From: Terriglobia bacterium
GTDB lineage: Bacteria; Acidobacteriota; Terriglobia; Bryobacterales; Bryobacteraceae
DNA: 64,000 nt
Direction: 5' to 3'
Assembly: GCA_020073345.1 (NCBI GenBank)
Contig: JAIQFI010000005.1
Location: 62,001-126,000, forward strand
Position numbers and translations under genes: made by a program. The notes beneath the pieces were generated by a model. It was not told where the DNA came from. It was given only the letters and a program-made list of their open reading frames with translations, and searched no databases. How positions within the stretch are numbered: position 1 is the first letter of the stretch; each line of letters starts with the position of its first letter. Positions 11,883 to 18,225 of this stretch are shown here, piece after piece.

Positions 11883-13262
11883 ATGAGCGTCTCTTTCGAG
11901 GCCATTATTATCGGCACCGGACAGGCCGGACCGCCCTTGGCCAGACGCCTGACCGCCGCGGGAATGAGGGTCGCGATCATCGAGCGTGGGCTGTTCGGCG
12001 GGACGTGCGTAAATACCGGCTGCATCCCGACCAAGACCATGGTCGCGAGCGCTTATGCCGCGCGTTTGGCCAGCCGCGCGGCCGAATTCGGAGTCGTGAC
12101 CGGCGCGCCCGTGTCGGTCGATATGAAGCGCGTCAAAGCGCGGAAGGACGAAATCTCCGACCAGGCCAATCACAGTGTGGAAAACGGGCTGAAAAGCATG
12201 GCGAACTGCACCGTGTATCAAGGCCACGCCCGGTTCGAGTCGCCACATGAAGTCAGCGTCGGCGATGTGCGACTCACGGCGGACAAGATCTTCCTCAACG
12301 TGGGCGGTCGCGCCGCAGTGCCGCCGATTCCGGGATTGGATCAGGTTCCGTATCTCACCAACAGTTCGATGATGCACTTGGACTTCCTTCCAAAACATCT
12401 CGTCATTCTGGGCGGAAGCTACATCGGCCTGGAGTTCGGCCAGATGTTCCGTCGCTTCGGCAGCGAGGTGATCATCATTGAGGGCGGTCCGCGGTTGGTC
12501 GCGCACGAGGATGAAGATGTATCCGCTGCAATCCTGGATATTTTGAATCGTGAAGGCATTCGAGTTCATCTCAATGCCAAGTGCAAGAGTTTCGCACGCC
12601 GGAGAGACGAGACGATCGCGACCGTGGATGCCGCCGGCATAACCTCTGAAATCCGCGGTTCCCACGTGTTGATCGCGACTGGGCGGCGCCCGAACACCGA
12701 CGATCTGGGACTCGACAAGGCGGGACTGGCGGTTGATTGGCGCGGGTACATCATGGTCGACGATCAGCTCCGCACCAACGTCCGCGGCATCTGGGCAATG
12801 GGCGACTGCAACGGGAAGGGTGGGTTCACCCACACTTCGTATAACGATTTCGAAATCGTCGCAGCGAATCTTCTCGATAACGACCCTCGCAAGGTCAGTG
12901 ATCGCATTCTGACTTACGCTTTGTACATCGATCCGCCGCTGGGGCGCGCCGGGATGACCGAGACCCAGGCCAGAGCCACTGGGCGGAAGGTGCTGATGGG
13001 TACGCGCCCGATGACAAAAGTTGGCCGCGCTGTTGAAAAGGGTGAAACTTTTGGCTTCATGAAAGTTCTAATAGAGGCGGACACGAAGCGGATCATGGGA
13101 GCTTCCATTCTCGGCACGGGTGGCGATGAGGCCATTCACTCCATCCTCGATGTGATGTATGCTGACAAGCCGTACACCGTGATTCAGCGGGCCATGCACA
13201 TCCACCCGACGGTATCCGAACTGATTCCGACCATGCTGGGAGAGTTACAGCCGCTCGCGTGA
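11883..13262 (+). CDS. FAD-dependent pyridine nucleotide-disulfide oxidoreductase (MerA/lipoamide-dehydrogenase-like)
   Basis: 459 residues from ATG 11883. FAD-binding GTGQAG occurs at 11-16, the redox-active disulfide in GGTCVNTGCIPTK (Cys42/Cys47), an NAD(P) dinucleotide fold at ILGGSYIGLEFGQ, ATGRRPNTD, and the C-terminal catalytic pair His441/Glu446 in HIHPTVSE. It lacks the N-terminal HMA domain and the C-terminal vicinal cysteines of true mercuric reductase, so another disulfide substrate is likely. Its stop overlaps the GTG of egtB by 4 bp and opens the ergothioneine-type operon, so a role in reducing an ergothioneine- or sulfur-linked disulfide is an attractive inference. Dihydrolipoamide dehydrogenase is an alternative. 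Confidence 0.85.
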   Translation: MSVSFEAIIIGTGQAGPPLARRLTAAGMRVAIIERGLFGGTCVNTGCIPTKTMVASAYAARLASRAAEFGVVTGAPVSVDMKRVKARKDEISDQANHSVENGLKSMANCTVYQGHARFESPHEVSVGDVRLTADKIFLNVGGRAAVPPIPGLDQVPYLTNSSMMHLDFLPKHLVILGGSYIGLEFGQMFRRFGSEVIIIEGGPRLVAHEDEDVSAAILDILNREGIRVHLNAKCKSFARRRDETIATVDAAGITSEIRGSHVLIATGRRPNTDDLGLDKAGLAVDWRGYIMVDDQLRTNVRGIWAMGDCNGKGGFTHTSYNDFEIVAANLLDNDPRKVSDRILTYALYIDPPLGRAGMTETQARATGRKVLMGTRPMTKVGRAVEKGETFGFMKVLIEADTKRIMGASILGTGGDEAIHSILDVMYADKPYTVIQRAMHIHPTVSELIPTMLGELQPLA

Positions 13263-14548
13263 CCGCCATGCTTGCCGCGCCAAACAAAGTAGGAAGCTTG
13301 CTCGACCGTCTGGATCGAGCCCGTGCGCAAACCGACAAGCTGTTCGAAATCGTCCGGCCGGACTCTTTGTATGACCGTCCGATTCCCGAGCGCCACCGGA
13401 TCGTCTTCTACATCGGGCATCTGGAGGCATTTGATTGGAACCTGCTGCGGTCCGAGTCGAGCTTGCGACCGTTCGATGCGGATCTGGACCGGTTATTCGC
13501 ATTTGGAATCGATCCGGTGGACGGCGGTCTGCCGTCCGACCATCCTTCGGACTGGCCGGTGCTGGAGCAAGTCCGTCGCTACGGGGCGCGCGTACGCGAT
13601 GCGCTCCAAAGCGTCAGTAGTTTTTCGGAAATACTGCTGAATACGGCGATCGAACACCGGCTCATGCACGCCGAGACGCTGGCGTACATGTTTCACCGGT
13701 TACCGCTCGACAAGAAAATCCGCCAACCGCAGGCTGGTGTTCCGGAGCGCGAACCACCACTGTCTGAATCCATCGAAATCCCGGACGGGTGCGTCACACT
13801 CGGACTGTGTCGCGATGCCGCGGACTTCGGCTGGGACAACGAATACGACGCTCACACCGTGAGAGTTCCTGCGTTCGCTATCGACCGCTACAAAGTGACC
13901 AACGGCCAATACCTCGAGTTTCTGCAAGCGGAGGGATATCGGGACCGAAGCCTGTGGACGGCGGCGGACTGGGAATGGAAATCCGCGAGCGGTATTTCGC
14001 ATCCCGTTTTTTGGAAACGCGCGGGCGACGCCTGGCATCTACGGACAATGTTCGACGAGATCTCCTTGCCGCCGTCCTGGCCGGTTTATGTGAGCCAGGC
14101 CGAAGCTTCCGCTTACGCCCGCCGGGCCGGCAAACGACTACCCACCGAGCCCGAATGGCAAAGAGCGGCCTACGGTTCGAACGATGGCCGCTTTCCATGG
14201 GGCGATCAGAGACCCGATCCCGAGCATGGGTATTTCGACTTCGAACGTTGGGATCCCGCGCCGGTCGATGCCTTCCCGCAAGGACGAAGCGCGTTTGGAT
14301 TGGACGGACTCCTGGCCAACGGCTGGGAGTGGACCGCGACGCCCTTTGGTCCATTCGAAGGATTTCAGGCGGTCCCGTTTTACGAAGGTTACTCCGCCAA
14401 TTTCTTCGACGGTAAACATTTCGTGATGAAGGGCGGCTCGCCGCGCACGGATCGCAGCATGCTTCGGCGGTCTTTCCGGAACTGGTTCCAGCCCCACTAT
14501 CCGTACGTGTATGCGGGATTTCGCTGTGCGAGTAATGGGTCTAAGTAA
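13259..14548 (+). CDS. egtB: Ergothioneine biosynthesis sulfoxide synthase EgtB
   Basis: 429 residues from GTG 13259 (ATG at 13268 is an alternative). The N-terminal DinB-like domain has the three-histidine iron site His54, His133 and His137 (the last two in EHRLMHAE), nearly the same numbers as mycobacterial EgtB (51/134/138). The C-terminal formylglycine-generating-enzyme-like domain has RLPTEPEWQRAA, NGWEWT, VMKGGSPRTD and the terminal YAGFRCA. EgtB joins a sulfur donor to hercynine (trimethylhistidine) by iron-dependent oxidation. With no egtA or egtC nearby, a cysteine-using EgtB, as reported for the acidobacterium Chloracidobacterium, is plausible. Followed by egtD after 9 bp. Confidence 0.92.
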   Translation: MTAMLAAPNKVGSLLDRLDRARAQTDKLFEIVRPDSLYDRPIPERHRIVFYIGHLEAFDWNLLRSESSLRPFDADLDRLFAFGIDPVDGGLPSDHPSDWPVLEQVRRYGARVRDALQSVSSFSEILLNTAIEHRLMHAETLAYMFHRLPLDKKIRQPQAGVPEREPPLSESIEIPDGCVTLGLCRDAADFGWDNEYDAHTVRVPAFAIDRYKVTNGQYLEFLQAEGYRDRSLWTAADWEWKSASGISHPVFWKRAGDAWHLRTMFDEISLPPSWPVYVSQAEASAYARRAGKRLPTEPEWQRAAYGSNDGRFPWGDQRPDPEHGYFDFERWDPAPVDAFPQGRSAFGLDGLLANGWEWTATPFGPFEGFQAVPFYEGYSANFFDGKHFVMKGGSPRTDRSMLRRSFRNWFQPHYPYVYAGFRCASNGSK

Positions 14549-14557
14549 AGGCGATTT

Positions 14558-15526
14558 ATGCGAACAAGCGCGATCATGGCTCGGGCGGCAGGCGAGTTTG
14601 CCACCGATATCCGAAACGGACTCACCAAACCGGGGCAAAAAGAATTGCCGTCCAAGTATCTCTATGACACCATCGGATCGAAACTTTTCGAAGTGATCGC
14701 CGAGCTTCCCGAGTACGGTTTGACGCGCGCGGACGAGCGGCTGATTCGCGGGCACGCCGGCGAGATTGTGGAGCGCATCGCGGGCGACGTGGTGCTTTGC
14801 GAGCTCGGCAGCGGAAGCGGCACCAAGACTCGCTGGATCCTGGAGGCGCTTTCCCGCCGCCGTCACACGTACTACTTTCCGATCGAAATTTCTTCCGCCG
14901 CGCTGGCTGTGTGCCGCCGGGAGCTGGCCGATATCGATTCGGTTGGAATCGTCGGCCTCGAACGCGAATACCTGGACGGCTTGCTGGAAGTGGCCGCCCG
15001 CAGGCGCGATGGGCAGCGGATTCTGGTGCTATTTCTGGGCAGCACGATCGGCAACTTCAGCCATCCCGCGGATATTAACTTCCTCCGAAACGTCCGCATG
15101 ATTCTCAAAACCGGCGATGCGTTGCTGCTGGGGACGGATCTCGAAAAGTCGGTTCCCCAGCTCATCCAGGCGTATGACGATCCACTTGGAGTCACGGCGG
15201 CGTTCAATCTCAATCTGCTGGTCCGCATCAACCGGGAGCTGGACGCGGATTTTGACCTCGATCAGTTCCGGCACTTGGCCCGATTCAATTCCGACACCGG
15301 AAGCGTCGAGATGCATCTGCAGTCTCTGCGGAAGCAATCCGTCACTATCCATGCCGCCGATCTGCAAATCGCGTTCGAGGATGGCGAAACGATCTGGACC
15401 GAGAACAGTCACAAGTATTCTCACGACGAGATCGCGCGCCTGGCCGAAGTGGCCGGATTCCGTTGTGAAGCGCAGTGGATCGACCATGAATGGCCGTTTA
15501 CCGAGAGCCTGTTCGTGGTGAAGTAA
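14558..15526 (+). CDS. egtD: L-histidine N-alpha-methyltransferase EgtD
   Basis: 322 residues, the normal EgtD length. Diagnostic boxes are KYLYDTIGSKLFE, ELPEYGLTRADERL (usually LPEYYPTRTE), the SAM-binding ELGSGSGTKTRW, FLGSTIGNF, LLLGTDLEK, AFNLNLLVRINRELDA and the C-terminal ENSHKYS. The enzyme trimethylates histidine to hercynine, the substrate of EgtB directly upstream. Its TAA overlaps the ATG of the ABC ATPase (TAATG), so synthesis and transporter genes are translationally coupled. No separate C-S lyase (EgtE) is visible in the window. Confidence 0.93.
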   Translation: MRTSAIMARAAGEFATDIRNGLTKPGQKELPSKYLYDTIGSKLFEVIAELPEYGLTRADERLIRGHAGEIVERIAGDVVLCELGSGSGTKTRWILEALSRRRHTYYFPIEISSAALAVCRRELADIDSVGIVGLEREYLDGLLEVAARRRDGQRILVLFLGSTIGNFSHPADINFLRNVRMILKTGDALLLGTDLEKSVPQLIQAYDDPLGVTAAFNLNLLVRINRELDADFDLDQFRHLARFNSDTGSVEMHLQSLRKQSVTIHAADLQIAFEDGETIWTENSHKYSHDEIARLAEVAGFRCEAQWIDHEWPFTESLFVVK

Positions 15527-16254
15527 TGCCGCCGGTCGAGTTTCGCGACGTCTCGTATGAAATCGCGGGGAAACCGATTCTTCAGGATCTGAGTCTGCAT
15601 GTGGAAGTCGGTGAAACTTTGGTCCTCCTGGGCCGTAGCGGCTCCGGCAAGACTACCGCGCTCAAGATGATCAACGGCATGCTGTTCCCGAAGCGGGGAC
15701 AGGTGTTCGTTGATGGTCGTGCAACTACCGACTGGGATCCGATCAAGCTGCGGCGGAGAATCGGCTATGTGATCCAGGAAGTCGGACTCTTTCCTCACTT
15801 CACGGTCGAAAACAATGTCGGTCTCGTCCCGAAACTCGAAGGCTGGAGCGCGGGAGATATCGAGAGCCGTGTGAATCTGCTGCTCGAGAAGGTCGGTATG
15901 CCAGCGGGCGAGTTCCGCTCGCGTTATCCCCGGCAACTCTCCGGCGGGCAGCGTCAGAGAGTCGGCGTGGCCCGAGCTCTCGCGGCCGATCCGCCTGTGC
16001 TGCTCTTCGACGAACCCTTTGGTGCACTCGATCCAGTGATGCGCTTGGAATTGCAGCAGCAGTTCGTGACCTTGCGGCAAGACTTCCAAAAAACGTCCAT
16101 ATTTGTCACACATGACGTGCGGGAAGCGTTGATGCTCGGCACCAACATCGCGCTGCTGACAGCCGGGCGCCTGGATGTCATGGCTCCGCCACAGGAATTC
16201 CGGCGGGCGCGCAGCGAGGAAGCCCGGGCATTCTTGGCTTGCCTCCATAACTGA
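15526..16254 (+). CDS. ABC transporter ATPase, betaine/quaternary-amine (OpuCA/EgtV-like) type
   Basis: 242 residues from ATG 15526, which shares a base with the egtD stop. Walker A is GRSGSGKT (36-43), signature LSGGQRQRVGVAR (from 138), Walker B VLLFDEP, and H-loop FVTHD. The INGM, RRRIGYVIQEVGLFPHFTVENN and LDPVMR segments are typical of the osmoprotectant (OpuC/ProV) family. It ends soon after the ATPase core and lacks the C-terminal CBS domains found in many osmotically gated members. Together with the egtBD linkage, this argues for uptake of ergothioneine (itself a betaine) or hercynine in preference to osmoprotection. Confidence 0.9.
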   Translation: MPPVEFRDVSYEIAGKPILQDLSLHVEVGETLVLLGRSGSGKTTALKMINGMLFPKRGQVFVDGRATTDWDPIKLRRRIGYVIQEVGLFPHFTVENNVGLVPKLEGWSAGDIESRVNLLLEKVGMPAGEFRSRYPRQLSGGQRQRVGVARALAADPPVLLFDEPFGALDPVMRLELQQQFVTLRQDFQKTSIFVTHDVREALMLGTNIALLTAGRLDVMAPPQEFRRARSEEARAFLACLHN

Positions 16255-16266
16255 TACAAAGTAGTG

Positions 16267-16884
16267 ATGCGCTCGGACCTGTGGGGTGAGATCCTCCAGC
16301 TTGCAGCGGAGCACCTGCTGCTGGTGCTGAACGCGATGGTGCTCGCGATCGCCATCGGCGTGCCCTTGGGGATCTACTTATCGCGCAAACAGGCCGCGCG
16401 CCCGTGGCTGCTTGGATTCGCGAACATCATGCAGACCATCCCCAGCCTGGCGTTGTTCGGCTTCTTGATCCCGATTCCGCTCATCGGCGGAATAGGTAAG
16501 CGGACCGCGATCGTCGCCCTGGTGTTGTACGCGCTGCTTCCGATCCTGCGCAACACGCTGGTCGGGATCCTCGGCGTGGAAGCCGCGGTTTGCGAGTCTG
16601 CAGTGGCGATGGGAATGACAGACGGACAGTTGCTACGCCAGGTTCAGATCCCGCTGGCCGCGCCGACCATCATGGCCGGGATCCGGGTCGCCACCGTGAC
16701 GACCATCGGCACGGCCACCATTGCCGCGGCGATTGGCGGCGGCGGTCTCGGTGTTTTCATCTTTAGAGGAGTCGCGTCGGTGGATACGGTACAGATACTC
16801 GCGGGAGCGGTTCCGGCGGCATTGATTGCGTTAGCGGCAGACTGGGGACTGGGATGGGTCGAACGAAAATTATCGCGGCTCTGA
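16267..16884 (+). CDS. ABC transporter permease, betaine/quaternary-amine type
   Basis: 205 residues from ATG 16267; a GTG 3 bp upstream would add one residue. About five to six hydrophobic spans. Characteristic OpuCB/EgtU-type segments: HLLLVLNAMVLAIAIGVPLG, IMQTIPSLALFGFLIP, YALLPILRNTL, and the EAA-like loop ESAVAMGMTDGQLLRQVQIP followed by IMAGIRVATVTTIGTATIAA. A single permease protein of this length would act as a homodimer. It lies 12 bp after the ATPase and overlaps the binding-protein gene by 31 bp. In the known EgtUV system the permease and binding domain are fused; here they are separate. Confidence 0.9.
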   Translation: MRSDLWGEILQLAAEHLLLVLNAMVLAIAIGVPLGIYLSRKQAARPWLLGFANIMQTIPSLALFGFLIPIPLIGGIGKRTAIVALVLYALLPILRNTLVGILGVEAAVCESAVAMGMTDGQLLRQVQIPLAAPTIMAGIRVATVTTIGTATIAAAIGGGGLGVFIFRGVASVDTVQILAGAVPAALIALAADWGLGWVERKLSRL

Positions 16885-17759
16885 CGCTCGTGGTCGCGCT
16901 GATTGGGGCGCTGGCGTTGTGGACCGTGAGCAATCGGGGTATCCGCGTAGGTTCGAAAAACTTTACCGAGCAGGTAGTCCTCGGCGAGATCATCGCACAG
17001 CATCTGGAACATCGCCTGCAACAGAAGGTGAACAGGCAACTGAACCTGGGAGGTACGCTGTTGGCGCACGGAGCCTTGGTCAATCAAGAAATCGACGTCT
17101 ATCCGGAATACACTGGCACGGCCCTGACCGCGATTTTGAAGGACGCTCCCGACAATGATCCGGCGCGAGTCCTGGCCCATGTTCGATCCGAATATGCCAA
17201 GCGGTTCAAAATCGAGTGGCTGGATCCGCTCGGGATCGATAATACTTTCGCGATGGTGGTGAGCGGGGCTGATGCCCGCGCGAAGCACCTGGAGAATTTG
17301 ACCGACGCATCGATGGCTGGCACCGCCTGGACGCTGGGCGTCGGTTACGAGTTTCAGCAGCGCCCGGATGGGCTCGCGGCGCTCGATCGGACCTATCATT
17401 TGCATTGGACTGGAGGTCCCAAGACCATGGATCTCGGACTGCTGTACAAAGCGCTCGAGGGGAACCAGGTGACCATGATCGCGGCCAATGCCACGGACGG
17501 CTTGTTGTCGAAAATGGACCTGAAGATTCTCGCCGACGACAAGCATGCGTTCCCGCCGTATCAGGTTTCGATTGCAGCTTCGCAAGACCGGCTGCGCGAA
17601 ACGCCAGGTATGCGTGAGGCCTTGCAGGAGCTATCGGGCAAGTTCACCAACCAAACCATGCAAAAGCTCAACTATGAGGTGGATGGCGAGCATCGCCCGG
17701 TATCGCAAGTGGCTGCGGAATTTCTAAAGGAGATGTATGGCACCACGTCTGGAAAGTGA
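16854..17759 (+). CDS. Betaine-type substrate-binding protein (OpuBC/EgtU-domain-like)
   Basis: 301 residues, with an N-terminal membrane anchor or signal (IIAALTLVVALIGALALWTV). The mature part starts with IRVGSKNFTEQVVLGEI, the usual opening of glycine-betaine/choline/ergothioneine binding domains, then YPEYTGTALTAIL, LGIDNTFAMVV, and a C-terminal LSGKFTNQTMQKLNYEVDGE. Binding pockets in this family are aromatic cages for trimethylammonium groups. Given the egtB-egtD context I infer ergothioneine or hercynine as the ligand, but pocket residues cannot be assigned without an alignment. Its 3' end overlaps the DinB gene by 23 bp. Confidence 0.88.
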   Translation: MGRTKIIAALTLVVALIGALALWTVSNRGIRVGSKNFTEQVVLGEIIAQHLEHRLQQKVNRQLNLGGTLLAHGALVNQEIDVYPEYTGTALTAILKDAPDNDPARVLAHVRSEYAKRFKIEWLDPLGIDNTFAMVVSGADARAKHLENLTDASMAGTAWTLGVGYEFQQRPDGLAALDRTYHLHWTGGPKTMDLGLLYKALEGNQVTMIAANATDGLLSKMDLKILADDKHAFPPYQVSIAASQDRLRETPGMREALQELSGKFTNQTMQKLNYEVDGEHRPVSQVAAEFLKEMYGTTSGK

Positions 17760-18225
17760 CAAACCCGTTCGCGAACATCTGGTAAAGCTCTTGGAAGGCG
17801 GGCAAGCGCATGTGACGCTCGAGGCTGCTATCAAAGGTCTTCCCGCTGCGCTGCGCGGCAAGAGACCCAAGGGCGCGGAGCATTCGCCTTGGGAGATTCT
17901 CGAGCACATGCGCATCGCGCAGTGGGACATCCTGGAATTCAGCCGCGACGCGAAGCACGTTTCGCCCGAATGGCCCTCGGGTTATTGGCCAAAGTCCAAG
18001 ACGCCTCCGAACGACAAGGCTTGGGCTAAGAGCTTGCGAGCTTTCAATTCCGACCTGGAAGCCATGCGCAAGCTGGTGGCGGCGCAATCGACGGATCTGT
18101 ATGCTCCCATCCCGCACGGCGACGGGCAGACGATCCTGCGCGAAGCGCTGCTGATCGCGGATCACAATGCGTATCACATCGGCGAGCTGGTACTGGTGCG
18201 GCGGCTACTTGGCGCGTGGAAGTAG
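17737..18225 (+). CDS. DinB-family protein (thiol S-transferase-like four-helix protein)
   Basis: 162 residues; ATG 17737 is preceded by AAGGAG at good spacing, inside the end of the binding-protein gene. The DinB/YfiT four-helix fold is indicated by HSPWEILEHMRIAQWDIL, YWPKSKTPPND, and the C-terminal DHNAYHIGELVLVRRLLG. Histidines in the first and last segments could form the family's three-His metal site. Relatives include bacillithiol and mycothiol S-transferases. As the last gene of the egt operon it is a candidate ergothioneine-dependent S-transferase, which is inference from context only. It overlaps the convergent cytidine deaminase gene by 21 bp. Confidence 0.85.
   Translation: MAPRLESDKPVREHLVKLLEGGQAHVTLEAAIKGLPAALRGKRPKGAEHSPWEILEHMRIAQWDILEFSRDAKHVSPEWPSGYWPKSKTPPNDKAWAKSLRAFNSDLEAMRKLVAAQSTDLYAPIPHGDGQTILREALLIADHNAYHIGELVLVRRLLGAWK

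Follow-up and report, generated by a model that had tools for sequence, protein, structure and literature searches.

A betaine-family ABC importer encoded with ergothioneine synthesis genes in Acidobacteriota and other phyla: a candidate system for recapture by producers

Why would a bacterium apparently equipped to make the antioxidant ergothioneine encode, in the same operon, an importer of the type that takes up betaines? The question is raised by a seven-gene operon in a 64,000-nucleotide stretch of DNA from a Terriglobia soil bacterium of the phylum Acidobacteriota (contig JAIQFI010000005.1, positions 62,001 to 126,000), referred to here as the window. The operon combines the synthesis genes egtB and egtD with genes for the ATPase, permease and substrate-binding protein of an ATP-binding cassette (ABC) importer, and it also encodes a flavin disulfide reductase (FDR) and a DinB_2-family protein. 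In PMC9732360, the ergothioneine importer EgtU is described for bacteria incapable of making ergothioneine. We favor, with a probability of about 0.6, the reading that the importer in the window acts on the producer side and recaptures ergothioneine (or hercynine), being encoded together with the genes for its synthesis. Judged from the genes, this pairing, which turns up again with other gene orders in related bacteria and in Nitrospira, suggests that producers may also recapture ergothioneine.

The first-pass annotation had described a compact operon in which synthesis genes are joined to a betaine-family ABC importer. Both points are borne out: all seven genes lie on the + strand with intergenic spacings of -4, +9, -37, +9, -31 and -23 bp, in this order, and family matches were obtained for all seven products.

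11883..13262, + strand: FDR, an FAD-dependent pyridine nucleotide-disulfide oxidoreductase (NF004992, 793.6 bits; cut-off 629)
13259..14548, + strand: EgtB-type non-heme iron sulfoxide synthase, nearest EgtB-IV (FGE-sulfatase domain; H54, H133, H137)
14558..15526, + strand: EgtD histidine N-alpha-methyltransferase (TIGR03438, 305.4 bits; cut-off 290.9)
15490..16254, + strand: ABC importer ATPase, betaine/proline/choline type, no CBS domain (ABC_tran; alternative start ATG 15526)
16264..16884, + strand: ABC importer permease, with no second permease in the operon (BPD_transp_1; presumed homodimer)
16854..17759, + strand: substrate-binding protein, OpuAC family, subcluster F-III fold (OpuAC PF04069, 179.3 bits; cut-off 21.2)
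17737..18225, + strand: DinB_2-family protein (DinB_2, 44.2 bits; H57, H143 and H147 as presumed metal site)

If the in-frame ATG at 15526 is taken as the start of the ATPase, the overlap with egtD shrinks from 37 bp to 1 bp; this ATG stands at the alignment position of the starts chosen in L036, L038 and L039 (loci and genomes are cited by L and G numbers). A promoter scan returned 0 sites, against 2.3 expected. The source genome measures 6.23 Mb in 98 contigs and is 97.5% complete. The closest named-genome match of the binding protein (90% identity) comes from a metagenome-assembled genome of Bryobacteraceae (Acidobacteriota), in which the last 200 residues of the protein are the same as in the genus-mate G019.

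The strongest evidence for a function shared by the importer and the egt genes is that their linkage survives many gene orders. Loci were collected through the similarity of their binding proteins to that of the window, a first set comprising 40 loci around binding-protein matches and a second the best 80 of 580 loci from a scan of species genomes; after removal of duplicates, 111 non-redundant loci remained (L103 contains only part of a binding protein). In the first set, egtB and/or egtD lie beside the importer in 11 of the 40 loci (L034-L042, L046 and L050). Among the non-redundant loci, 35 are egt-linked, 46 are unlinked with long flanks, 28 are unlinked with short flanks, and two carry an EgtD-like enzyme instead; because loci were picked by binding-protein similarity, 35/111 is not an unbiased fraction. 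The linked loci belong to 20 named Acidobacteriota, eight Nitrospirota, one Gemmatimonadota and six other relatives, and they display eight gene orders:

egtB-egtD-importer: 14 loci
FDR-egtB-egtD-importer: 7 loci
importer facing egtD-egtB: 5 loci, Nitrospirota
egtD-importer: 3 loci (L041 and L105 on contigs ending in egtD)
divergent: 2 loci
importer-egtB-egtD: 2 loci
importer-FDR-egtB-egtD: 1 locus
egtD-egtB-importer: 1 locus

The nearest egt gene lies 0-178 bp from the importer in 34 of the 35 linked loci; in L126 the distance is 1400 bp, with FDR in between. Moreover, EgtD adjoins the importer in four additional loci (L161-L164). Eight arrangements spread over three phyla imply repeated rearrangement during which the linkage was kept. 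Mapped onto a quick tree, linkage has to change state 17 times, with 11 of these changes forced by starred branches, compared with a mean of 30.8 for shuffled labels; it is therefore clustered, yet it has been gained and lost often.

The association extends to whole genomes. EgtD (E 1e-30 or better) was found in 33 of 61 relatives, and in 12 of these 33 the binding protein is encoded at most 10 kb away; one more of the 33, G015, has only the importer ATPase beside EgtD, and in G017 the neighbor of the ATPase is a fragment of EgtD located where a contig ends. Within the genus (23 genomes), 13 members have both EgtD and the binding protein (at least 54% identity), eight have neither of the two, and G013 is limited to the binding protein and G017 to the EgtD fragment; the eight counted as having neither still carry a second binding protein of 39-47% identity. 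When the genus was recounted by tree, EgtD was present in 10 of 10 genomes with a binding protein of the main type versus three of the other 13, not counting the G017 fragment. In a draw of 199 genomes from the phylum, 39 of the 48 that encode the binding protein have EgtD, versus 35 of the 151 that do not (Fisher 7e-13, kinship uncorrected), and the two are at most 10 kb apart in five of the 39 (G000, G119, G185, G194 and G306). A lack of co-occurrence in relatives, which the first-pass annotation had named as the outcome that would speak against its proposal, is thus not what the linked loci and the phylum draw display.

Several observations nevertheless weigh against recapture of ergothioneine; they concern the distribution of the genes, the last step of synthesis and the binding pocket. 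On the tree, G010, G013, G015 and G016 have binding proteins that group within a 20-row clade lacking any egt linkage, nine of the 48 phylum-draw genomes with a binding protein are without EgtD, and 35 of the 74 EgtD-bearing genomes in that draw are without a binding protein at the threshold used. Among 50 genomes whose locus is unlinked or cut short (L122 left out of the count), a true EgtD (E 1e-50 or better) is encoded elsewhere in 36, only an EgtD-like protein in four and neither in 10, so that 14 of the 50 are without a true EgtD. Since EgtD is missing from 14/50 and 9/48 genomes, the importer also exists apart from ergothioneine genes; the importer-EgtD association is strong, though not absolute in either direction. 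As for the last step, no EgtE lyase (TIGR04343) scored over the cut-off in the source genome, where the best match reached 67.1 of 400 bits; weak matches to this model also occur in all 14 control genomes.

The pocket is best considered together with the family to which the binding protein belongs. The protein scores over the PF04069 cut-off and has an F-III-type fold, as expected of OpuAC-type quaternary amine binding proteins. In a structure search with its model (mean predicted local distance difference test score, pLDDT, 92.0), the first 36 rows are all F-III-type with Z of 30-35, and lower rows reach at most 20. Sensor precursors and OpuCC head this model-based ranking (Z about 35), ahead of Helicobacter pylori EgtU (33.4) and the entries for SpEgtUC, the Streptococcus pneumoniae protein (at most 32.0); by sequence, too, EgtUC is outscored by OpuBC/OpuCC-type proteins and by related sensor proteins. 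The closeness to EgtU implied in the first-pass annotation is thus not supported, as neither ranking singles EgtU out.

Likeness to EgtU (EgtUA-EgtUBC; S. pneumoniae, H. pylori) exists all the same, in the OpuAC family, the F-III fold, a single permease, and a carboxylate clamp with an equivalent of Glu375. The binding proteins share 30-31% identity in structural alignment, and the permease shows 40-47% identity with those of the OpuC, YehY and EgtU-like types used for comparison. Architecture differs: EgtU fuses permease and binding domain, whereas the window encodes them in separate, overlapping open reading frames, as the first-pass annotation had stated. That annotation had also noted the lack of CBS domains in the ATPase, and ABC_tran is indeed the sole Pfam domain over cut-off there. 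Also in contrast to EgtU, the window importer sits with synthesis genes (for EgtU in non-producers, PMC9732360).

Seven distinct relatives (L131, L145, L152, which equals L052, L161, L162, L163 and L170) encode permease and binding domain as one continuous open frame, and such frames of 541-559 amino acids occur in G119, G185 and G306; L168 and L169 have no single frame with both domains. The fused frame, which is the EgtU architecture, adjoins EgtD and the ATPase in L161-L163. The source genome itself encodes a second binding protein (L064:6947-7819, on C48; 45% identity) with a degraded pocket, which belongs to the 20-row clade mentioned above; the window queries detected no permease or ATPase in its 7-kb flanks. 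L101, a record titled Nevskia soli (Pseudomonadota), has a binding protein that groups with Acidobacteriota rows and may reflect a misnamed record or gene transfer.

Pocket residues were compared with SpEgtUC, whose numbering is used for positions 242-419. In SpEgtUC, K242, T296 and R379 clamp the ergothioneine carboxylate, and E375 and T275 lie at the imidazole; G244, invariant in EgtU, and F293 set EgtU apart from glycine betaine binders, and the G244F substitution weakens ergothioneine binding about 100-fold (PMC9732360). The corresponding pocket of the window protein consists of K35, N36, F37, G67, T68, Y86, T89, N130, F132, E166, R170, N212 and Y236. K35, T89 and R170 reproduce the clamp, E166 corresponds to E375, and all four are invariant in 17 of 17 aligned sequences, the window included; T68 corresponds to T275. 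Gly244 and Phe293, however, are replaced by Phe37 and Tyr86, likewise invariant in 17 of 17, and F132 and N212 replace Y341 and Y419, so that all four of these SpEgtUC residues are substituted. Of the comparison with EgtU proposed in the first-pass annotation, the clamp and the glutamate therefore stand, and the two ergothioneine determinants do not; on account of the latter, membership of the EgtU family was rejected. By the determinants tested, the binding protein is classified from its sequence as an F-III betaine-binding protein and not as a member of the EgtU family. Its predicted pocket would suit a betaine with a carboxylate group, without pointing to ergothioneine in particular.

Nor does the pocket separate egt-linked from unlinked importers. 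Its letters are nearly constant over the 94 subfamily rows tabled, a table that omits 17 of the 111 rows (L054, L057 and L059-L073), mostly second copies with degraded pockets. A signature that splits the two groups was sought among 15 positions, and none is clean; only position 275 leans, being Thr in 34 of 35 linked loci, with Ser in 0 of 35 linked versus 9 of 34 unlinked rows, a change that keeps the hydroxyl.

These features bring forward the most serious alternative, which we regard as clearly less probable than recapture of ergothioneine or hercynine and still deserving attention: an importer of betaines or osmoprotectants in general (glycine betaine or proline betaine) that is merely co-transcribed with ergothioneine genes, perhaps because of shared stress induction or because betaine supports the methyl supply of EgtD. 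Phe at position 244 and Tyr at 293 are the pattern of AfProX, a glycine betaine binder (PMC9732360), to which F37 and Y86 conform. A near-identical pocket also occurs in importers of genomes without EgtD, and among 11 F-III reference proteins from outside the subfamily Tyr293 is present in eight and a K(N/D)F motif in five. On the other hand, linkage kept through eight gene orders and an association with EgtD well over background speak against a generic importer. Moreover, the aromatic cage differs from that of OpuC/AfProX-type importers in that one cage Tyr has become Asn (N212). At position 419, 32 of the 35 linked loci have Asn and the other three Ser, as opposed to Tyr in seven, Phe in two, Ala in one (Rhizobium leguminosarum) and Gln in one (Sinorhizobium meliloti) of the 11 references; unlinked relatives have Asn too (30 of 34). 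OpuBC and OpuCC, whose type tops the sequence and structure scores, are without the clamp Lys, which the window protein has, and without the Glu of position 375; at position 379, OpuCC and OpuBC read R and L in a first pocket alignment and K and K in a second, and this column is unsure for both proteins because the alignments disagree. Finally, all five OpuC-type loci fetched with permeases have two of them, whereas the window operon has one and is linked to ergothioneine genes.

Somewhat less probable again is the proposal that the substrate is hercynine or another aromatic amino-acid betaine and not ergothioneine, which for hercynine overlaps with the recapture reading favored here. In L161-L163, EgtD lies beside the importer with no EgtB match nearby, and G244 and the Phe293 switch, both of which contribute to ergothioneine affinity, are missing from the window protein. 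In L125 (4626-5582), L132 (4164-4946) and L165 (7128-7910), an EgtD-like methyltransferase of 26-28% identity takes the place of EgtD directly upstream of the importer ATPase. The enzymes of L125 and L132 have lost the histidine-binding residues Asn166 and Glu282, and another amino-acid betaine may be made at these three loci. Against a substrate other than ergothioneine stands the presence of EgtB in 32 of the 35 linked loci, and the genomes of L161-L163 have candidate EgtB-like proteins elsewhere (33-39% identity).

A related context was seen on the R. leguminosarum plasmid pSK01 (L175:4361-6867), where the top-scoring homologue of the binding protein among plasmids (41.7% identity) follows a gene annotated hutH. 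The encoded lyase falls under the hutH cut-off (384.5 of 539 bits), and its top solved match is the ergothionase 6s7j (265.5 bits), followed by a probable histidine ammonia-lyase (241.8 bits). A binding protein beside a probable histidine-betaine lyase gives a hint, if only a hint, of a link to ergothioneine, and the locus is possibly a catabolic operon for ergothioneine or hercynine.

Is the synthesis half of the operon sound? The three-His iron site of EgtB and the intactness of EgtD, both claimed in the first-pass annotation, hold up. In EgtB, the ligands H54, H133 and H137 are invariant in 9 of 9 aligned sequences. The FGE-sulfatase domain scores over its cut-off and DinB_2 marginally under it (24.7 versus 24.8 bits), which together with the three histidines fits a type IV-like EgtB. 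Its top solved matches are EgtB-IV (8vih, 8.4e-68, and 8vig), with which it has in common the HxxxH iron motif and an RNWF(R/Q)P motif; the solved chains comprise 463-468 amino acids versus 429 in the window protein, which represents an Acidobacteriota branch with a predicted sulfoxide synthase role. N408 and W409 align with the hercynine-binding Asn-Trp pair of MthEgtB. Phe410 and Tyr414 occupy the positions of MthEgtB Asp416 and Arg420, and for this reason gamma-glutamylcysteine is an unlikely sulfur donor. EgtD passes the curated TIGR03438 cut-off, matches Mycobacterium smegmatis EgtD at 3.6e-60, and agrees with that enzyme at all 11 active-site positions checked; Ser284 is Cys in some relatives, including all eight linked Nitrospirota. 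It is quite improbable that the product is instead a sibling of ergothioneine (a selenium or 5-thiol analogue) served by importer and reductase, an idea that shares its importer part with the recapture reading: although EgtB scores slightly higher with OvoA (259.9 of 400 bits) and SenA (251.6 of 420) than with EgtB (TIGR03440, 235.5 of 360), all under cut-off, and a disulfide reductase would suit a disulfide-forming thiol, the nearest solved relative is EgtB-IV, the Asn-Trp positions are kept and EgtD is intact.

The two remaining genes point to thiol chemistry. FDR has a redox pair, C42-C47, and an HPTxxE motif with H441, these three residues being invariant in 9 of 9 aligned sequences. It was considered as a mercuric, glutathione or mycothione reductase and rejected as each, because it scores under all three curated cut-offs and has a single CxxxxC pair but lacks a Cys close to the C-terminus. 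Eight of the 35 egt-linked loci include a linked FDR (the L038 copy lies in two frames); in L044 it adjoins the importer with no egt genes. Of the 61 relatives, 11 have an FDR orthologue (E 1e-120 or better), and all 11 have EgtD versus 33 of 61 overall, which has a chance of about 5e-4 if kinship is ignored. The DinB protein recurs in 6 of 39 stretches compared, window included, and H57, H143 and H147 are kept in 6 of 6 aligned copies.

Mycothiol and bacillithiol have known reductases and DinB-type transferases. By analogy, the operon might constitute a self-contained ergothioneine economy, in which EgtB and EgtD synthesize the compound, the importer recaptures it, the flavin reductase re-reduces its oxidized form and the DinB-family protein uses it as a transferase; we hold this extended scheme to be doubtful. 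The source genome has BshC (bacillithiol synthesis) and no match to GSH-S_ATP (glutathione synthesis), which led to glutathione being discarded as the client of the reductase. It follows that the reductase and the DinB protein could serve bacillithiol instead, a possible alternative client of both.

Two further flavoproteins were noted near such importers. A thioredoxin-reductase-like flavoprotein of about 550 amino acids lies at most 1 kb from the egt-importer cluster in 6 of 39 stretches, these six coming from two phyla; its thioredoxin-reductase match is under cut-off, and its N-terminus is probably cyclic-nucleotide-binding. The six copies are as follows:

L081:3-1658, thioredoxin-reductase-like flavoprotein
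L085:3906-5555, the same
L087:3699-5333, the same
L120:3325-4971, the same
L121:5791-7236, the same
L126:10190-11893, the same

On a Ligilactobacillus salivarius plasmid (L075:1356-4846), the genes for an EgtU-like permease-binding protein and an ATPase precede that for an NAD(P)/FAD-dependent oxidoreductase, which is 30% identical to the FDR of the window.

Under the recapture reading, the products of the operon would act in sequence. EgtD would trimethylate histidine to hercynine, EgtB would add sulfur to hercynine, with cysteine as the probable donor, and a lyase encoded elsewhere would complete ergothioneine. An ABC importer built from the ATPase, two copies of the permease and the binding protein would recapture leaked or secreted ergothioneine (or hercynine), and thiol redox chemistry within this module would probably be the role of the flavin reductase and the DinB protein.

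No report of a combined synthesis-importer operon, including one concerning the ergothioneine genes of Nitrospira or Acidobacteria, was found among the literature matches listed, in a search with subscription journals largely outside its coverage; nor did the matches listed for an ergothioneine disulfide reductase or for the transporter context of ergothionase include a report of either. The first-pass annotation had called joint synthesis and uptake unusual. This is accurate for the published systems examined, but within the lineages studied here the arrangement recurs often.

Bacterial ergothioneine importers have been reported from scavengers of the compound. If the recapture reading is true, the presence of a dedicated importer in the biosynthesis loci, maintained through reorderings in three phyla, would mean that producers manage an extracellular pool as well. 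The flavin reductase offers a handle on whether bacteria enzymatically re-reduce oxidized ergothioneine, and the importer is a concrete candidate for testing the circulation of ergothioneine in soil and nitrifying communities.

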